DNA of 34,818 nucleotides from Deltaproteobacteria bacterium (GTDB lineage Bacteria; Desulfobacterota; Syntrophorhabdia; Syntrophorhabdales; Syntrophorhabdaceae). The translations under genes were made by a program, and so were the position numbers. Position 1 is the first letter of the stretch, and each line of letters starts with the position of its first letter. Of the stretch, positions 7,309-32,171 are shown in pieces. Under the pieces are notes generated by a model. The model saw nothing but the letters and a program-made list of their open reading frames with translations, made no database searches and had not been told where the DNA came from. The stretch lies in the NCBI GenBank assembly GCA_029559435.1, contig JAKQBZ010000075.1:1-34818 (forward strand), given 5' to 3'.

Positions 7309-8196
7309 TTACCTTCTTGGGTGGGATTTATCGTATATCTCCATCAATTTGTCCATGGAGATATGGGTATATTTTTGCGTCGTTGAAAGCTTTGAGTGGC
7401 CAAGCAGCTCCTGAATGCTTCTCAGGTCCGCCCCGCTATCGAGCAGATGGGTAGCAAATGAATGACGTATCCCGTGGAGAGAAAGATTCTTGAAAAGCTG
7501 CGCCTTTAACTGATGCTTTTTCATGATCTTCAACAAACCCCTGTATGACAACCTGCCGCCTCGTATGTTCATAAAAAGCGGCTTGCCCGGCCCGTCCTTG
7601 CCCATCTCTTTTACGGTACCCCTGTATTCTTCAAGGGCGCTCTTCGCCTTTTCGCCAAAGGGTACTATGCGCTCTTTTCCGCCTTTTCCCCTTATCTTTA
7701 TCCACATCCCGTCGAGGTGGAGGTCGTCTATGTCCAGGTTGAGGACCTCCTGAGCCCTCGTGCCCGTTGAATACATAAGCTCGAAGATCGCCCGGTTTCT
7801 GATGTTCAGCCACCCCTCCTTGGGGAGAAAATCGAGGAAGTGGAACATCTCATCGATCGTGTAGAACTTTGGAAGGTTCTTTTCGATCTTCGGGTTTTTT
7901 ATGACCAGCGCGGTATTCTCCTCCGTATAGCCTTTTCGCTTCATGAATTTAAAAAAGACCTTGATGGCCGAAACCTTTCGCGAAAGGGAAGATTTTTTTA
8001 GGTTCTTGTAAATGCTGACGATATAGGCCCTTATGGTGTTGTGGTCGATCGCATCGTAGGAGCTCTTGTCGATAAAGGCTATGAAGTCCTCAATATCGCC
8101 CTTGTATGCCCGTTTCGTGTTGTACGGGGAGCCCTTTTCGCGCTCCAGATATTTATAAAATTCTTTCGCTGCAGATTTTACCGCGTGCTTATCCAT
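7309..8196 (-). CDS. xerC: Tyrosine recombinase XerC/XerD family
   Basis: Site-specific recombinase of the Xer type, which in most bacteria resolves chromosome dimers at dif. The protein is 295 aa with an N-terminal SAM-like core-binding domain (residues 7-95) and a C-terminal catalytic domain. The complete catalytic set is seen: R147 (STGTRAQE), K171 (GKGGKER), H241 and R244 ([11 protein letters not shown]), H267 (LLGHSKL) and Tyr276 (TTQKYTH). Position upstream of hslVU is a familiar arrangement. No mobile-element boundary is visible, so a housekeeping role is more likely than an integrase. Whether it corresponds to XerC or XerD cannot be told. There is no clear ribosome binding site; see the promoter entry. 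Confidence 0.88.
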
Positions 8197-8304: not shown

Positions 8305-8342
8305 TCGACACAATTGTCGATGAGAACATGATAACTTCGACA
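8305..8342. promoter_or_regulatory. Candidate activator-binding site for the orphan sigma-54 promoter
   Basis: TCGACA (8305-8310) and TGTCGA (8315-8320) form a perfect inverted repeat around CAAT. A further TCGACA stands at 8337-8342, 32 bases (about three helical turns) after the first. The palindrome is centred about 115 bases upstream of the -24 element, the usual distance for a sigma-54 enhancer, with AT-rich DNA between. It differs from the ATATTGCA-type sites near the NifX island, so a different activator would be expected. Confidence 0.45.
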
Positions 8343-8427
8343 TTTTTTTCCTGATCTATTCTATCGTCTTTGCCACCATAAATATTATTAAACAATGATA
8401 ACGTTCGGTTGCAGATAAGCCACGGTG

Positions 8428-8443
8428 TGGCACGATCTTTGCT
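8428..8443 (+). promoter_or_regulatory. Sigma-54 (-24/-12) promoter without a downstream protein gene
   Basis: TGGCAC-gatct-TTGCT matches the RpoN consensus at every key base: GG at 8429-8430 and GC at 8441-8442 with the required 10 bases between. The predicted start of transcription is near 8454. Downstream there is no open reading frame with a ribosome binding site, only a hairpin and T-run. Confidence 0.75.
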
Positions 8444-8453
8444 ATTACAAATT

Positions 8454-8518
8454 ATATAACAAGGGGCAAGACATTCTTCATCCCCCCACCCTTCCGATCT
8501 TGCCCCTCCCCTTTTTTT
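8454..8518 (+). ncRNA. Predicted sigma-54-dependent small RNA with C-rich loop
   Basis: From the predicted start near 8454 the transcript would run 7-8 nt, then fold AGGGGCAAGA (8462-8471) against TCTTGCCCCT (8498-8507), a perfect 10-bp stem, and end after CCCC in seven T residues (8512-8518). The 26-nt loop is pyrimidine-rich and contains a run of six C residues, then ACCC and CTTCC. C-rich unpaired loops of this kind pair with purine-rich ribosome binding sites in known bacterial small RNAs, so a role as an antisense regulator is possible (inference). No known RNA family is recognised. Confidence 0.5.
8462..8518 (+). terminator. Hairpin plus T-run ending the predicted small RNA
   Basis: Perfect 10-bp stem (8462-8471 with 8498-8507) with a 26-nt loop. 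Four bases separate the stem from a run of seven T. The large loop is atypical for a simple intrinsic terminator. An alternative pairing of AAGGGG (8461-8466) with CCCCTT (8508-8513) would place the stem flush against the T-run. Confidence 0.5.
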
Positions 8519-8583
8519 AAAACAAGCATGAAATCCTAAGCATCAAATCAGAAACGAATCCAAATATTCAAAATTCAAAACGT

Positions 8584-8622
8584 CCCCCCTCTCCCTGGCC
8601 CTCTCCCGCAGGGGGAGAGGGG
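8584..8622. repeat. Dispersed GC-rich hairpin repeat, copy 1
   Basis: CCCTCTCCC (8599-8607) pairs with GGGAGAGGG (8613-8621), preceded by CCCCCCTCTCCCTGG. The same word family recurs at 17883-17912 and 22085-22124, each time between genes. This resembles widespread REP-like palindromes of bacterial chromosomes. Confidence 0.6.
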
Positions 8623-8785
8623 ATGTACCCGGTCTAAACTGTAAAGGATGTCTTAGTTGCACATGTTGCTATGACCCTTTTGGGAGGGAAGAATGTTGCC
8701 CCGAGGCGCGGCATGGGTCATTTTTGAGGATTGTCCCTCCTTCGTCAGGATTGAACCTTGCGATATTAGGATTTCGGATCTCATT

Positions 8786-8825: not shown

Positions 8826-10142
8826 CTATTTCTTCTTAAACACCAGCCTTATCGGTACGCCGCGGAATCCGTACTTCTGTCTCAGGGAGTTTTCGAGATA
8901 CCTTTTGTAGTGTTCGGGGATGCGCTCCGGGTGGTTTGAAAAGAGGATGAAGGTCGGCGGCAATGCCTTCGGCTGGTTGATATATGATATCCTGAGGCTC
9001 TTGCCCTGCTGATATGGAGGATGAAGCTTTTGCACAATTTCATCCAATGCCCTGTTGAGGTCCTGCGTTTTGATCATTCTCGTCAACTGGCCATATATCG
9101 CTGTATCCGTTTCAATGATCTTCCCGATATTCCTCCCTGTCTTTGCAGAAACAAAAAGGACGGGCGCAAAGGAGACGTGGGGCATGCTCTCCATTATCGC
9201 TGCGCTGTATTCGCCTTGTTTCATTTTTCCTTCAACGAGGTCCCATTTGTTCACAATGATGCAAACGCCCTTTCCTCTTGCGGCGATAAGGTGCGCAATG
9301 CTGCCGTCCTGATGGCTCGCCCCTTCCACGGCATCAATAACGAGATTGACAACCTGCGCCTTCTCAACGCTTCTGATGGCGCTCGAAACGGAGTATTCCT
9401 CTATCTTTTTTGTGACCTTGCTTTTCTTGCGAAGCCCTGCCGTGTCTATAAGGACAATCTCCCTGCCCTTGAAGGCCACCCTGGAATCAATGGCGTCCCT
9501 CGTAGTGCCGGGGACCTCGCTGACGATCATCCTGTCTGATTTGAGGATCCTGTTCGTGATCGACGATTTGCCCGTGTTCGGCCGCCCGATGATGGCAACC
9601 TTGAGGGCCGGGGATAGGCCTTCTCCGCTGCCCGGCGCTTCACCCGCTTCGGCCGCCGATCTGACAATATCCTCGAGAAGATCCTCAACGCCTGTTCCGT
9701 GGAGGGCGCTGATGGGGTAATATTTTTCTATTCCGAGCTCATAGAACTCGAAGGCATTGAACTCCCTCTTCTGCGAATCGATTTTGTTGATAATGTAAAA
9801 AACAGGCTTGCCGTATCTCCGCAAAGCCCTTGCAATATCCTTATCTTCAGGCAGGATCCCTTCCCTTCCGTCGAGAAGGAAAAGTACCATTGAAGATTCA
9901 TCGATAGATTTCTCTATCTGTTGCCCGATGAGCGGGGAGAACCCGTCTTCCCTGGAGGGCTCGAACCCGCCGGTATCAATGAGCACAAACACCCTTCCCC
10001 GGTATTCGAACTCGCCGTAGTTCCTGTCCCTCGTAACACCGGGCGTATCTTCCGTTATTGCCTTCCGGTAGCCGAGCATGCGGTTGAACAATGTTGATTT
10101 GCCGACGTTTGGCCTTCCGACTACGCTGATGACCTGCCTCAT
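8826..10142 (-). CDS. der: Der (EngA), double-domain ribosome-assembly GTPase
   Basis: Essential GTPase of 50S subunit maturation. The protein is 438 aa with two Era-like G domains and a C-terminal KH-like domain. The first G domain starts MRQVISVVGRPNVGKSTLF (P-loop residues 9-16) with DTPGVTRDRNYG and NKID; the second has GRPNTGKSSITNR, DTAGLRKKSK and NKWD. A longer open frame reaches upstream to 10493, but the ATG at 10142 gives the canonical N-terminus, has AGGAAAAGG in front and overlaps the MFS stop by 4 bases (ATGA). It ends the nudix-MFS-der unit. Confidence 0.96.
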   Translation of the reverse strand: MRQVISVVGRPNVGKSTLFNRMLGYRKAITEDTPGVTRDRNYGEFEYRGRVFVLIDTGGFEPSREDGFSPLIGQQIEKSIDESSMVLFLLDGREGILPEDKDIARALRRYGKPVFYIINKIDSQKREFNAFEFYELGIEKYYPISALHGTGVEDLLEDIVRSAAEAGEAPGSGEGLSPALKVAIIGRPNTGKSSITNRILKSDRMIVSEVPGTTRDAIDSRVAFKGREIVLIDTAGLRKKSKVTKKIEEYSVSSAIRSVEKAQVVNLVIDAVEGASHQDGSIAHLIAARGKGVCIIVNKWDLVEGKMKQGEYSAAIMESMPHVSFAPVLFVSAKTGRNIGKIIETDTAIYGQLTRMIKTQDLNRALDEIVQKLHPPYQQGKSLRISYINQPKALPPTFILFSNHPERIPEHYKRYLENSLRQKYGFRGVPIRLVFKKK

Positions 10143-12246: not shown

Positions 12247-12276
12247 ACGTTTTAGGCTGCAAATATCGTGCCCGGC

Positions 12277-30633: not shown

Positions 30634-31995
30634 ATGAAACGTGCAACCCATGAAAATGATAGAGACGTAATCCTTGATTCAATCAATGAGGGCGTTTTCA
30701 CCATAGGCCGCGATTGGCGTATCACCTCCTTCAATCAGGCCGCGCAACATATTACCGGCGTTTCAAGAGAAGAGGCTATAGGGCGCCTCTGTTCCGAGGT
30801 ATTCCATGCAAATATATGCGAAAATAACTGTGCCCTGAGGCGGACATTTGACACGGGAAAGCCCGTTGTGAACGTTACAGCTTTCATCGTCAACAACAAA
30901 GGGTTCAGGGTTCCCGTCCGCATCTCAACAGCGGTTTTGAAAGATGATAACAATAAAGTGATCGGCGGGGTAGAAACTTTTCAGGACCTAAGCCAGGTGG
31001 AACAGCTCAGGAAAGAGCTGCAAAGCAGCCACACCTTTGAAGACATTGTCGGGAAAAGCCCCGCAATGATGCGCCTCTTCGAGATGCTTCCGCTGATCGC
31101 TGAAAGTAGCAGCACGGCTCTGATCGAAGGCCCGAGCGGCACAGGAAAGGAGCTTTTCGCCAGGGCCATACATAATCTGTCTCCGCGCAGAAAAAAACGT
31201 TTTGTTGCGGTGAACTGCGCCGCCCTGCCGGACACGCTCCTTGAAAGCGAGTTTTTCGGCCATAAGGCCGGGGCGTTCACTGACGCGAGGAGGGACAAGG
31301 TCGGGCGGTTCATGCTTGCGGACGGAGGCACAATATTCCTTGATGAGATAGGTGATATATCCCCGGCCCTCCAGGTGCGTCTGCTTCGCGTGCTCCAGGA
31401 GCGCACGGTGGAGCCGCTCGGCGCCATAGAGCCGGTGAAGGTGGATGTCCGCGTAATTGCCGCCACAAATAAAGACCTGACAAAGCTTGTCGAAGATGGA
31501 AAGTTCCGGGAGGACCTTTACTATCGTATCCGCGTTGTCCATCTCACGCTGCCAGGCTTAAAAGAGCGGCGGGAAGACATTCCGTTGCTGGTCGACCATC
31601 TTCTGGCCAAATTTAATCGGCTTCAAGGAAAGGCTATTACCGGCGTATCCATTGAGGCAATGGCGCAGCTTATGGAATACGACTTTCCCGGCAATGTGCG
31701 GGAGCTTGAGAACATTATCGAACAGGCGTTCGTTTTGTGCCGCGGCGAGATCATAGAGCTGCACCACCTTCCCCCTGAATTGCGCCCGGCCGTAGAATCT
31801 TCGGACGGTAAGGCCGGCCCGATGAGCCTCGAAGCAATGGAAAAAAGTCTTATTGCCGAGACATTGCGCCGCTATGCAGGTAATCGAAAGTCGGCTGCCC
31901 GCGTCCTTGGCATCAACACCAGCACCCTTTATAGAAAGATAAAAGACCTGGAGATCGAAGTGCCTGCAAGCGATGGGCGCGGGTATCGCAGATAG
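30634..31995 (+). CDS. Sigma-54-dependent transcriptional activator (PAS - AAA+ - Fis HTH)
   Basis: A 453-aa enhancer-binding protein. The PAS sensor (about 10-120) has three cysteines in C53-x8-C62-x3-C66 (LCSEVFHANICENNCALRR), a likely metal, Fe-S or redox site. AAA+ domain: VGKSPAMM at 139, Walker A GPSGTGKE 166-173, the sigma-54 contact loop GAFTDA 213-218 (usual form GAFTGA), Walker B GGTIFLDEIG 231-240. A Fis-type helix-turn-helix spans about 410-445 (NRKSAARVLGINTSTLYRKI). No response-regulator domain, so it senses directly. It is divergent from the NifX operon, like the regulator of the Desulfovibrio orange-protein operons. Confidence 0.93.
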   Translation: MKRATHENDRDVILDSINEGVFTIGRDWRITSFNQAAQHITGVSREEAIGRLCSEVFHANICENNCALRRTFDTGKPVVNVTAFIVNNKGFRVPVRISTAVLKDDNNKVIGGVETFQDLSQVEQLRKELQSSHTFEDIVGKSPAMMRLFEMLPLIAESSSTALIEGPSGTGKELFARAIHNLSPRRKKRFVAVNCAALPDTLLESEFFGHKAGAFTDARRDKVGRFMLADGGTIFLDEIGDISPALQVRLLRVLQERTVEPLGAIEPVKVDVRVIAATNKDLTKLVEDGKFREDLYYRIRVVHLTLPGLKERREDIPLLVDHLLAKFNRLQGKAITGVSIEAMAQLMEYDFPGNVRELENIIEQAFVLCRGEIIELHHLPPELRPAVESSDGKAGPMSLEAMEKSLIAETLRRYAGNRKSAARVLGINTSTLYRKIKDLEIEVPASDGRGYRR

Positions 31996-32120: not shown

Positions 32121-32136
32121 TGGCATGTTAATTGCT
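32121..32136 (+). promoter_or_regulatory. Sigma-54 promoter of the scaffold-moaA operon
   Basis: TGGCAT-GTTAA-TTGCT with GG at 32122-32123 and GC at 32134-32135, exactly 10 bases between. The predicted start is near 32147, giving a 25-base leader that contains GAGGAG. Confidence 0.75.
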
Positions 32137-32171
32137 TAACTACGTTTATAGTAAAATGAGGAGAAGTGATA

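Follow-up and report, generated by a model that had tools for sequence, protein, structure and literature searches.

A candidate sigma-54-controlled small RNA linked to a ZraSR-like regulon in Syntrophorhabdaceae

A predicted small RNA gene between xerC and der

Positions 8305 to 8518 of the analyzed window, a stretch of 34,818 nucleotides comprising contig C170 of genome G000 (genus g1, here called the own genus), are best read as encoding a small regulatory RNA that belongs to a ZraSR-like regulon, a reading to which we assign a probability of about 0.7. The product would be an activator-driven hairpin of about 65 nt with a C-rich loop, probably pairing independently of Hfq and derived from the 3' end of an mRNA. 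The locus is real and most likely encodes a functional sRNA, an RNA of known kind but new family. The data consisted of DNA sequences, mostly from metagenome bins, and the open-access literature yielded no sRNA described from either a ZraSR-type system or Syntrophorhabdaceae. Coordinates of the features are collected in Table 1.

Table 1. Predicted sRNA locus and neighboring genes, in window coordinates
Feature	Position	Strand	Basis or remark
Enhancer palindrome TCGACA-N4-TGTCGA, predicted site of a ZraR-like sigma-54 response regulator	8305..8320	+	Exact match; conserved in relatives; heads zraPSR-like operons
Third half-site TCGACA, then TTTTTTTCC to 8351	8337..8342	+	Conserved ~15-17 bp after the palindrome at sRNA loci and Spy/Zra-like operons
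Sigma-54 promoter TGGCACGATCTTTGCT (-24/-12)	8428..8443	+	12/12 specified positions; RpoN gene in genome
Predicted small RNA, ~65 nt, no ORF	8454..8518	+	Start inferred from -12 element, end from T-run; fold z = -3.95
Hairpin 5' arm AGGGGCAAGA	8462..8471	+	100% inverted repeat; invariant in 6 genomes
C-rich loop, conserved core TTCATCC..CCC.ACCCYTCC	8472..8497	+	Own-genus alignment; g5 counterpart TTACCCCTTCCT
Hairpin 3' arm TCTTGCCCCT	8498..8507	+	Inverted repeat; own-genus alignment
T-run, termination in the window	8512..8518	+	Not conserved in G005, G001, G003 and several g5 genomes
xerC-like recombinase, divergent neighbor, marker of orthologous locus	7309..8196	-	xerC in 42/46 genomes; synteny with sRNA locus
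der GTPase, downstream, opposite strand; start approximate	8826..10140	-	

The promoter has no mismatch to TGGCACGNNNNTTGCW and is the sole perfect sigma-54 match in the window, where four matches with one mismatch or fewer occur versus 0.28 expected from shuffles. No gene separates xerC from der, both of which are encoded on the minus strand, and the promoter runs against the coding sense of its neighbors. With C8442 taken as the -12 position, transcription would start at 8454, and the stretch from there to 8518 contains no ATG. The 10-bp arms of the inverted repeat lie 26 nt apart, and the hairpin folds at -15.7 kcal/mol, a value reached by none of 200 shuffles; it is followed by CCCC and then by TTTTTTT.

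These elements bear out the preliminary description of this DNA, which had proposed a consensus RpoN promoter in a gene-free region and directed against the flanking genes, a perfect 10-bp stem with a 26-nt C-rich loop and a T-run (8462 to 8518), and a TCGACA-N4-TGTCGA palindrome at enhancer distance. The third half-site with its adjoining TTTTTTTCC, which is conserved together with the palindrome, is an addition to that list. The promoter had also been termed an orphan, which it is not, as the enhancer and its spacing are held in common with the operon of a ZraR-like regulator in the same genomes.

Conservation and selection

The preliminary description had staked its claim of an undescribed sigma-54-driven small RNA on conservation of promoter and stem in close relatives, and both are kept there, along with the enhancer, which supports that claim. 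A DNA search of 60 relatives recovered the region in G004 (93%), G005 (82%), and G001 (72%); in G006 it was split into two pieces, and in G003 the hairpin part was recovered. Promoter and hairpin align throughout the own genus, with invariant pairing arms and loop core. The covariance search that had been suggested for the stem with its C-rich loop found all six own-genus genomes at 70 to 81 bits, the rest of the class scoring 28 bits or less. Hairpins of genus g5 at the orthologous place were among the best non-self matches of this g1 model, weakly (E values of 0.03 to 0.7), and weak matches in the R1 search also fell outside g1, g5, and g11.

Using xerC as a landmark, sRNA orthologues were identified in 6/6 own-genus and 9/9 g5 genomes that have the locus. 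Enhancer, sigma-54 promoter, and C-loop hairpin are all kept in 15 of the 15 g1 and g5 genomes with a xerC region, a count that excludes four assemblies of these genera (G002, G034, G060, and G061) containing neither the locus nor xerC. In the nine g5 genomes the locus is again divergent from xerC, and enhancer and promoter are followed after 108 to 250 nt by a double hairpin, the last loop of which does not vary among the nine. Genus g11 offers one locus with enhancer, promoter, ORF, and C-loop hairpin (G016) and one with degraded enhancer and promoter (G024). In the other family genera that could be checked the locus was absent beside xerC, the upstream region being covered only in part in some of them.

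Pooled pairwise identity within g5 was 0.918 for the hairpin, 0.804 for the 18-bp promoter segment, and 0.697 for the enhancer, compared with 0.509 at fourfold sites of xerC, 0.477 in the spacer, 0.424 for the 60 downstream nucleotides, and 0.38 between promoter and hairpin. In the own genus the values were 0.83 for the hairpin, 0.874 for the promoter, and 0.803 for the enhancer, with 0.712 at xerC fourfold sites, 0.545 in the spacer, and 0.506 downstream. Because hairpin identity exceeds that of both fourfold sites and flanks, these comparisons indicate that selection is holding the hairpin, loop included. Covariation is slight because the stems hardly vary: the g5 transcript folds, and in five genomes two of its pairs differ on both sides; the helix before the terminal hairpin has one compensated pair, but the covariation test of the double hairpin was not significant.

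A plain intrinsic terminator would keep its stem and T-run and leave its loop free. Here the loop is conserved and the T-run is not, and the differences in T-runs among genomes argue against a bare terminator. The same contrast bears on the idea that the locus is a functionless scar in which the promoter and terminator of a lost small gene are now joined. The good T-runs of G000 and G004 would suit a scar, as would a partly decayed ORF between promoter and hairpin in G003, G006, G021, and G016. We nevertheless consider a scar unlikely, since the g5 loop does not vary at all although fourfold sites stand at 51%, the T-run lacks the conservation that the loop has, and the promoter is intact in every ORF-less genome of both genera. 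Conservation of the loop could also reflect its complement, as alignments of both genera show four minus-strand G-tracts (GGGG-A-GGGG...GGG-T-GGGGGG) that might form a quadruplex or a protein-binding site, such as one near der or xerC. Such a DNA or opposite-strand element is very improbable, as it leaves unexplained both the conserved pairing arms and a conserved sigma-54 promoter and enhancer that point into it.

A shared enhancer suggests membership in a Zra-like regulon

The palindrome, TCGACACAATTGTCGA in the window, is expected there by chance only 0.03 times with up to one mismatch, and no genome has more than one match to the strict three-part enhancer, with none in a reversed control. 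Operons headed by the palindrome in other genera have a usual order of a Spy-like gene, sometimes a lipoprotein gene, a second Spy/ZraP-like gene, a histidine kinase, and a sigma-54 response regulator. Domain matches confirm this order: the first gene product belongs to the Metal_resist/LTXXQ (Spy/ZraP) group, and the regulator is an NtrC-type response regulator with a Fis helix-turn-helix; orthologues of it are present in 40 of the 46 class genomes. In g1 and g5, palindrome and promoter are about 122 to 125 bp apart at sRNA loci versus 121 to 124 bp at Spy-kinase-regulator operons. Genome G000 has its own copy, in which CCGACA-N4-TGTCGA...TTCGACA...TGGCACACATATTGCT (L204) precedes a Spy-like ORF; its regulator gene, at the end of contig C126, is 98% identical to that of G004 over residues 1 to 212, where the contig stops.

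Since the enhancer recurs at the same distance before zraPSR-like operons, including that of G000, the RNA probably belongs to a Zra-like envelope-stress regulon. The shared sites suggest that the regulator binds the enhancer, and the operon layout points to the signal that it would answer; the assignment of the regulator thus draws on comparative evidence. ZraPSR is an envelope-stress system in Escherichia coli (PMC10848872). The name ZraSR-like is used here for the operon layout, as the regulator scores 431 bits against the NCBIfam ZraR model (cut-off of 760) and 470 bits against AtoC, also below that model's own cut-off.

Bins of Desulfobacterales and of other deltaproteobacteria (L173, L176, L179, L180, and L183) also have a three-part TCGACA enhancer with a sigma-54-like promoter before Spy-like ORFs, so the regulator site is conserved far beyond the family. 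Separately, two own-genus genomes have a second palindrome before a conserved ORF (MKKGKNTAEILDDDYELDNIELSDGRSQERTLILKAAPPSLKAQLMAHGAIEIRCTYCNRIKPLAG...) in L084 and L126 (G005:C29 and G003:C35), which may be one more regulon member.

Small ORFs in relatives and the origin of the RNA

The distance from promoter to hairpin is 19 nt in G000, G004, G005, and G001 versus 455 nt in G003 and 324 nt in G006. A small ORF lies between promoter and hairpin in G003 (L006), G006 (L005), G021 (L092), and G016 (L221), which together span three genera; G021 is the only g5 genome that retains it. Two frames overlap in this stretch. A signal-peptide frame (112 amino acids in G003) was considered as the lost ORF and rejected, as it is broken in G006 and G016 and the substitution pattern favors the other frame. 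That frame, RRxxWDVLxQSQLxxLxQQSLWLxxLCLxRQ, of about 60 to 100 amino acids, is open in all four genomes and has an excess of third-position substitutions in six of six pairs (138/257 in sum, versus 82/255 and 86/257). It had no Pfam match and belongs to no known family.

In these relatives the promoter would drive an ORF transcript that ends in the same hairpin, so the compact module of the window probably arose by loss of the ORF. Twelve of the 15 g1 and g5 genomes lack the ORF and keep promoter and hairpin. The hairpin follows an ORF in three genera and is found by itself in most genomes of two of them, which suggests that the 3' end of an mRNA has become an independent sRNA. By position it lies at a predicted mRNA 3' end in the four ORF carriers and not in the window or 11 other genomes. 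A single loss within the own genus found no support in two gene trees of moderate branch support; these separate the carriers G003 and G006, so that ORF presence does not follow one clade and either repeated loss or allelic exchange is required. Recombination is possible, the ORF-less leaders being co-linear.

The third-position excess in an ORF of four genomes and three genera also fits an RNA whose main role is to end and stabilize the mRNA of a small protein, or one that has a dual function, with ORF-less forms retaining only the stabilizer. This we regard as quite unlikely, as the 12 ORF-less genomes would be preserving promoter and hairpin with nothing left to stabilize. In the preferred reading, of a small regulatory RNA, the hairpin would once have ended a small-protein mRNA under the same promoter, and the ORF would have decayed or been deleted in most members of the two genera while promoter and hairpin were retained. 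The fullest version of this proposal, to which we give even odds, is a new Syntrophorhabdaceae RNA family that acts independently of Hfq and gives the envelope-stress response of a ZraSR-like sigma-54 system a non-coding arm. It would have been born when the ORF for a small protein was lost repeatedly from in front of a functional hairpin at the 3' end, so that the promoter of the mRNA came to drive the hairpin as an sRNA in its own right. Open, decayed, and missing ORFs would then mark intermediate steps on the way from the 3' end of an mRNA to an autonomous sRNA, a path rarely seen stepwise.

Proposed mechanism and targets

Upon activation of the kinase, the sigma-54 response regulator would bind the palindrome and half-site (8305 to 8342) and open the promoter at 8428, and RNA polymerase would produce a transcript consisting of little more than a stable hairpin whose C-rich loop is exposed. 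In the most tentative step of the scheme, this loop probably base-pairs, independently of Hfq, with target mRNAs at purine-rich leaders or translation starts and lowers their translation. A PF17209 search detected no Hfq in six genomes, while the same search detected it in control genomes.

Pairing of the loop with GGAGG-type leaders, as proposed in the preliminary description, is plausible by precedent, and a small duplex test lent no support to its specificity. Against 26 start regions of the window the loop had a mean duplex energy of -11.8, compared with -12.1 for shuffled loops of the same composition, and 137 of 200 shuffles were as good. A search of G000 for targets matching the full complement of the loop found none; near-complementary sites on contigs C92 and C279 were set aside because their strand or position does not suit an mRNA leader.

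Relation to known small RNAs

Several sigma-54-dependent sRNAs with promoters of their own are known, mostly from Gammaproteobacteria, including Qrr, GlmY, CrcZ, and NrsZ. The window RNA resembles them in having a -24/-12 promoter with an upstream activator site before a transcript without a protein-coding ORF, a layout found ORF-less in three other own-genus genomes as well, but differs in activator and structure. Searching the whole window against Rfam gave no match at the gathering score, and loose thresholds returned chance-level matches only.

Among sRNAs that arise from mRNA ends, CpxQ derives from the 3' untranslated region of cpxP (PMC9438474, PMC4817254). It shares with the window RNA a tie, probable in the latter, to an envelope-stress two-component system with a leading Spy/CpxP-type target gene, and with the forms in ORF-carrying relatives a hairpin at an mRNA 3' end. 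The window RNA differs in its sigma-54 promoter and ZraR-like activator, in mostly lacking an ORF, in a lost ORF that is not Spy-like, and in the dependence on Hfq that is typical of CpxQ, as none was found. The locus would provide a Zra-like regulon with a non-coding arm comparable to that of CpxQ in the Cpx system, in bacteria that have no detectable Hfq. FlmE (CJnc230) of Campylobacter jejuni is likewise an RpoN-dependent sRNA from an mRNA end, but is processed from the flgE mRNA, itself RpoN dependent, and belongs to the flagellar regulon (PMC11187230); no sequence relation to it was seen.

Loops of comparable composition are known from RepG of Helicobacter pylori, in which the C/U-rich loop of the terminator hairpin pairs with a G-repeat target (PMC8295292); unlike the window RNA, RepG has a known target and is not known to be under sigma-54 control. 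Anti-Shine-Dalgarno loops silence translation starts in the alpha-r14 RNA NfeR1 (PMC10746234), and CcsR1-4 come from mRNA 3' ends behind a small-protein ORF (PMC8625941). The window RNA shares such a loop with these alpha-r14 or cuckoo RNAs, and its probable former position with CcsR, but has another promoter and a single hairpin of this kind (loop CAUUCUUCAUCCCCCCACCCUUCCGA) rather than three or more, and the CCUCCUCCC motif that those RNAs carry in several hairpin loops is absent from it.

Other elements of the window

A palindromic repeat, CCCCTCTCCC...GGGAGAGGGG, occupies positions 8579 to 8625, directly after the sRNA, and similar repeats are present in G005 (L003). Positions 12258 to 12273 of the minus strand hold a one-mismatch match to the sigma-54 promoter, GGGCACGATATTTGCA. 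A further sigma-54-like site, TGGCATGTTAATTGCT (32121 to 32136), precedes an ORF at 32166 and is adjoined by a gene for a PAS-type sigma-54 activator (30634 to 31995); the cluster also encodes iron-sulfur carrier-like ATPases and NifX-like proteins.
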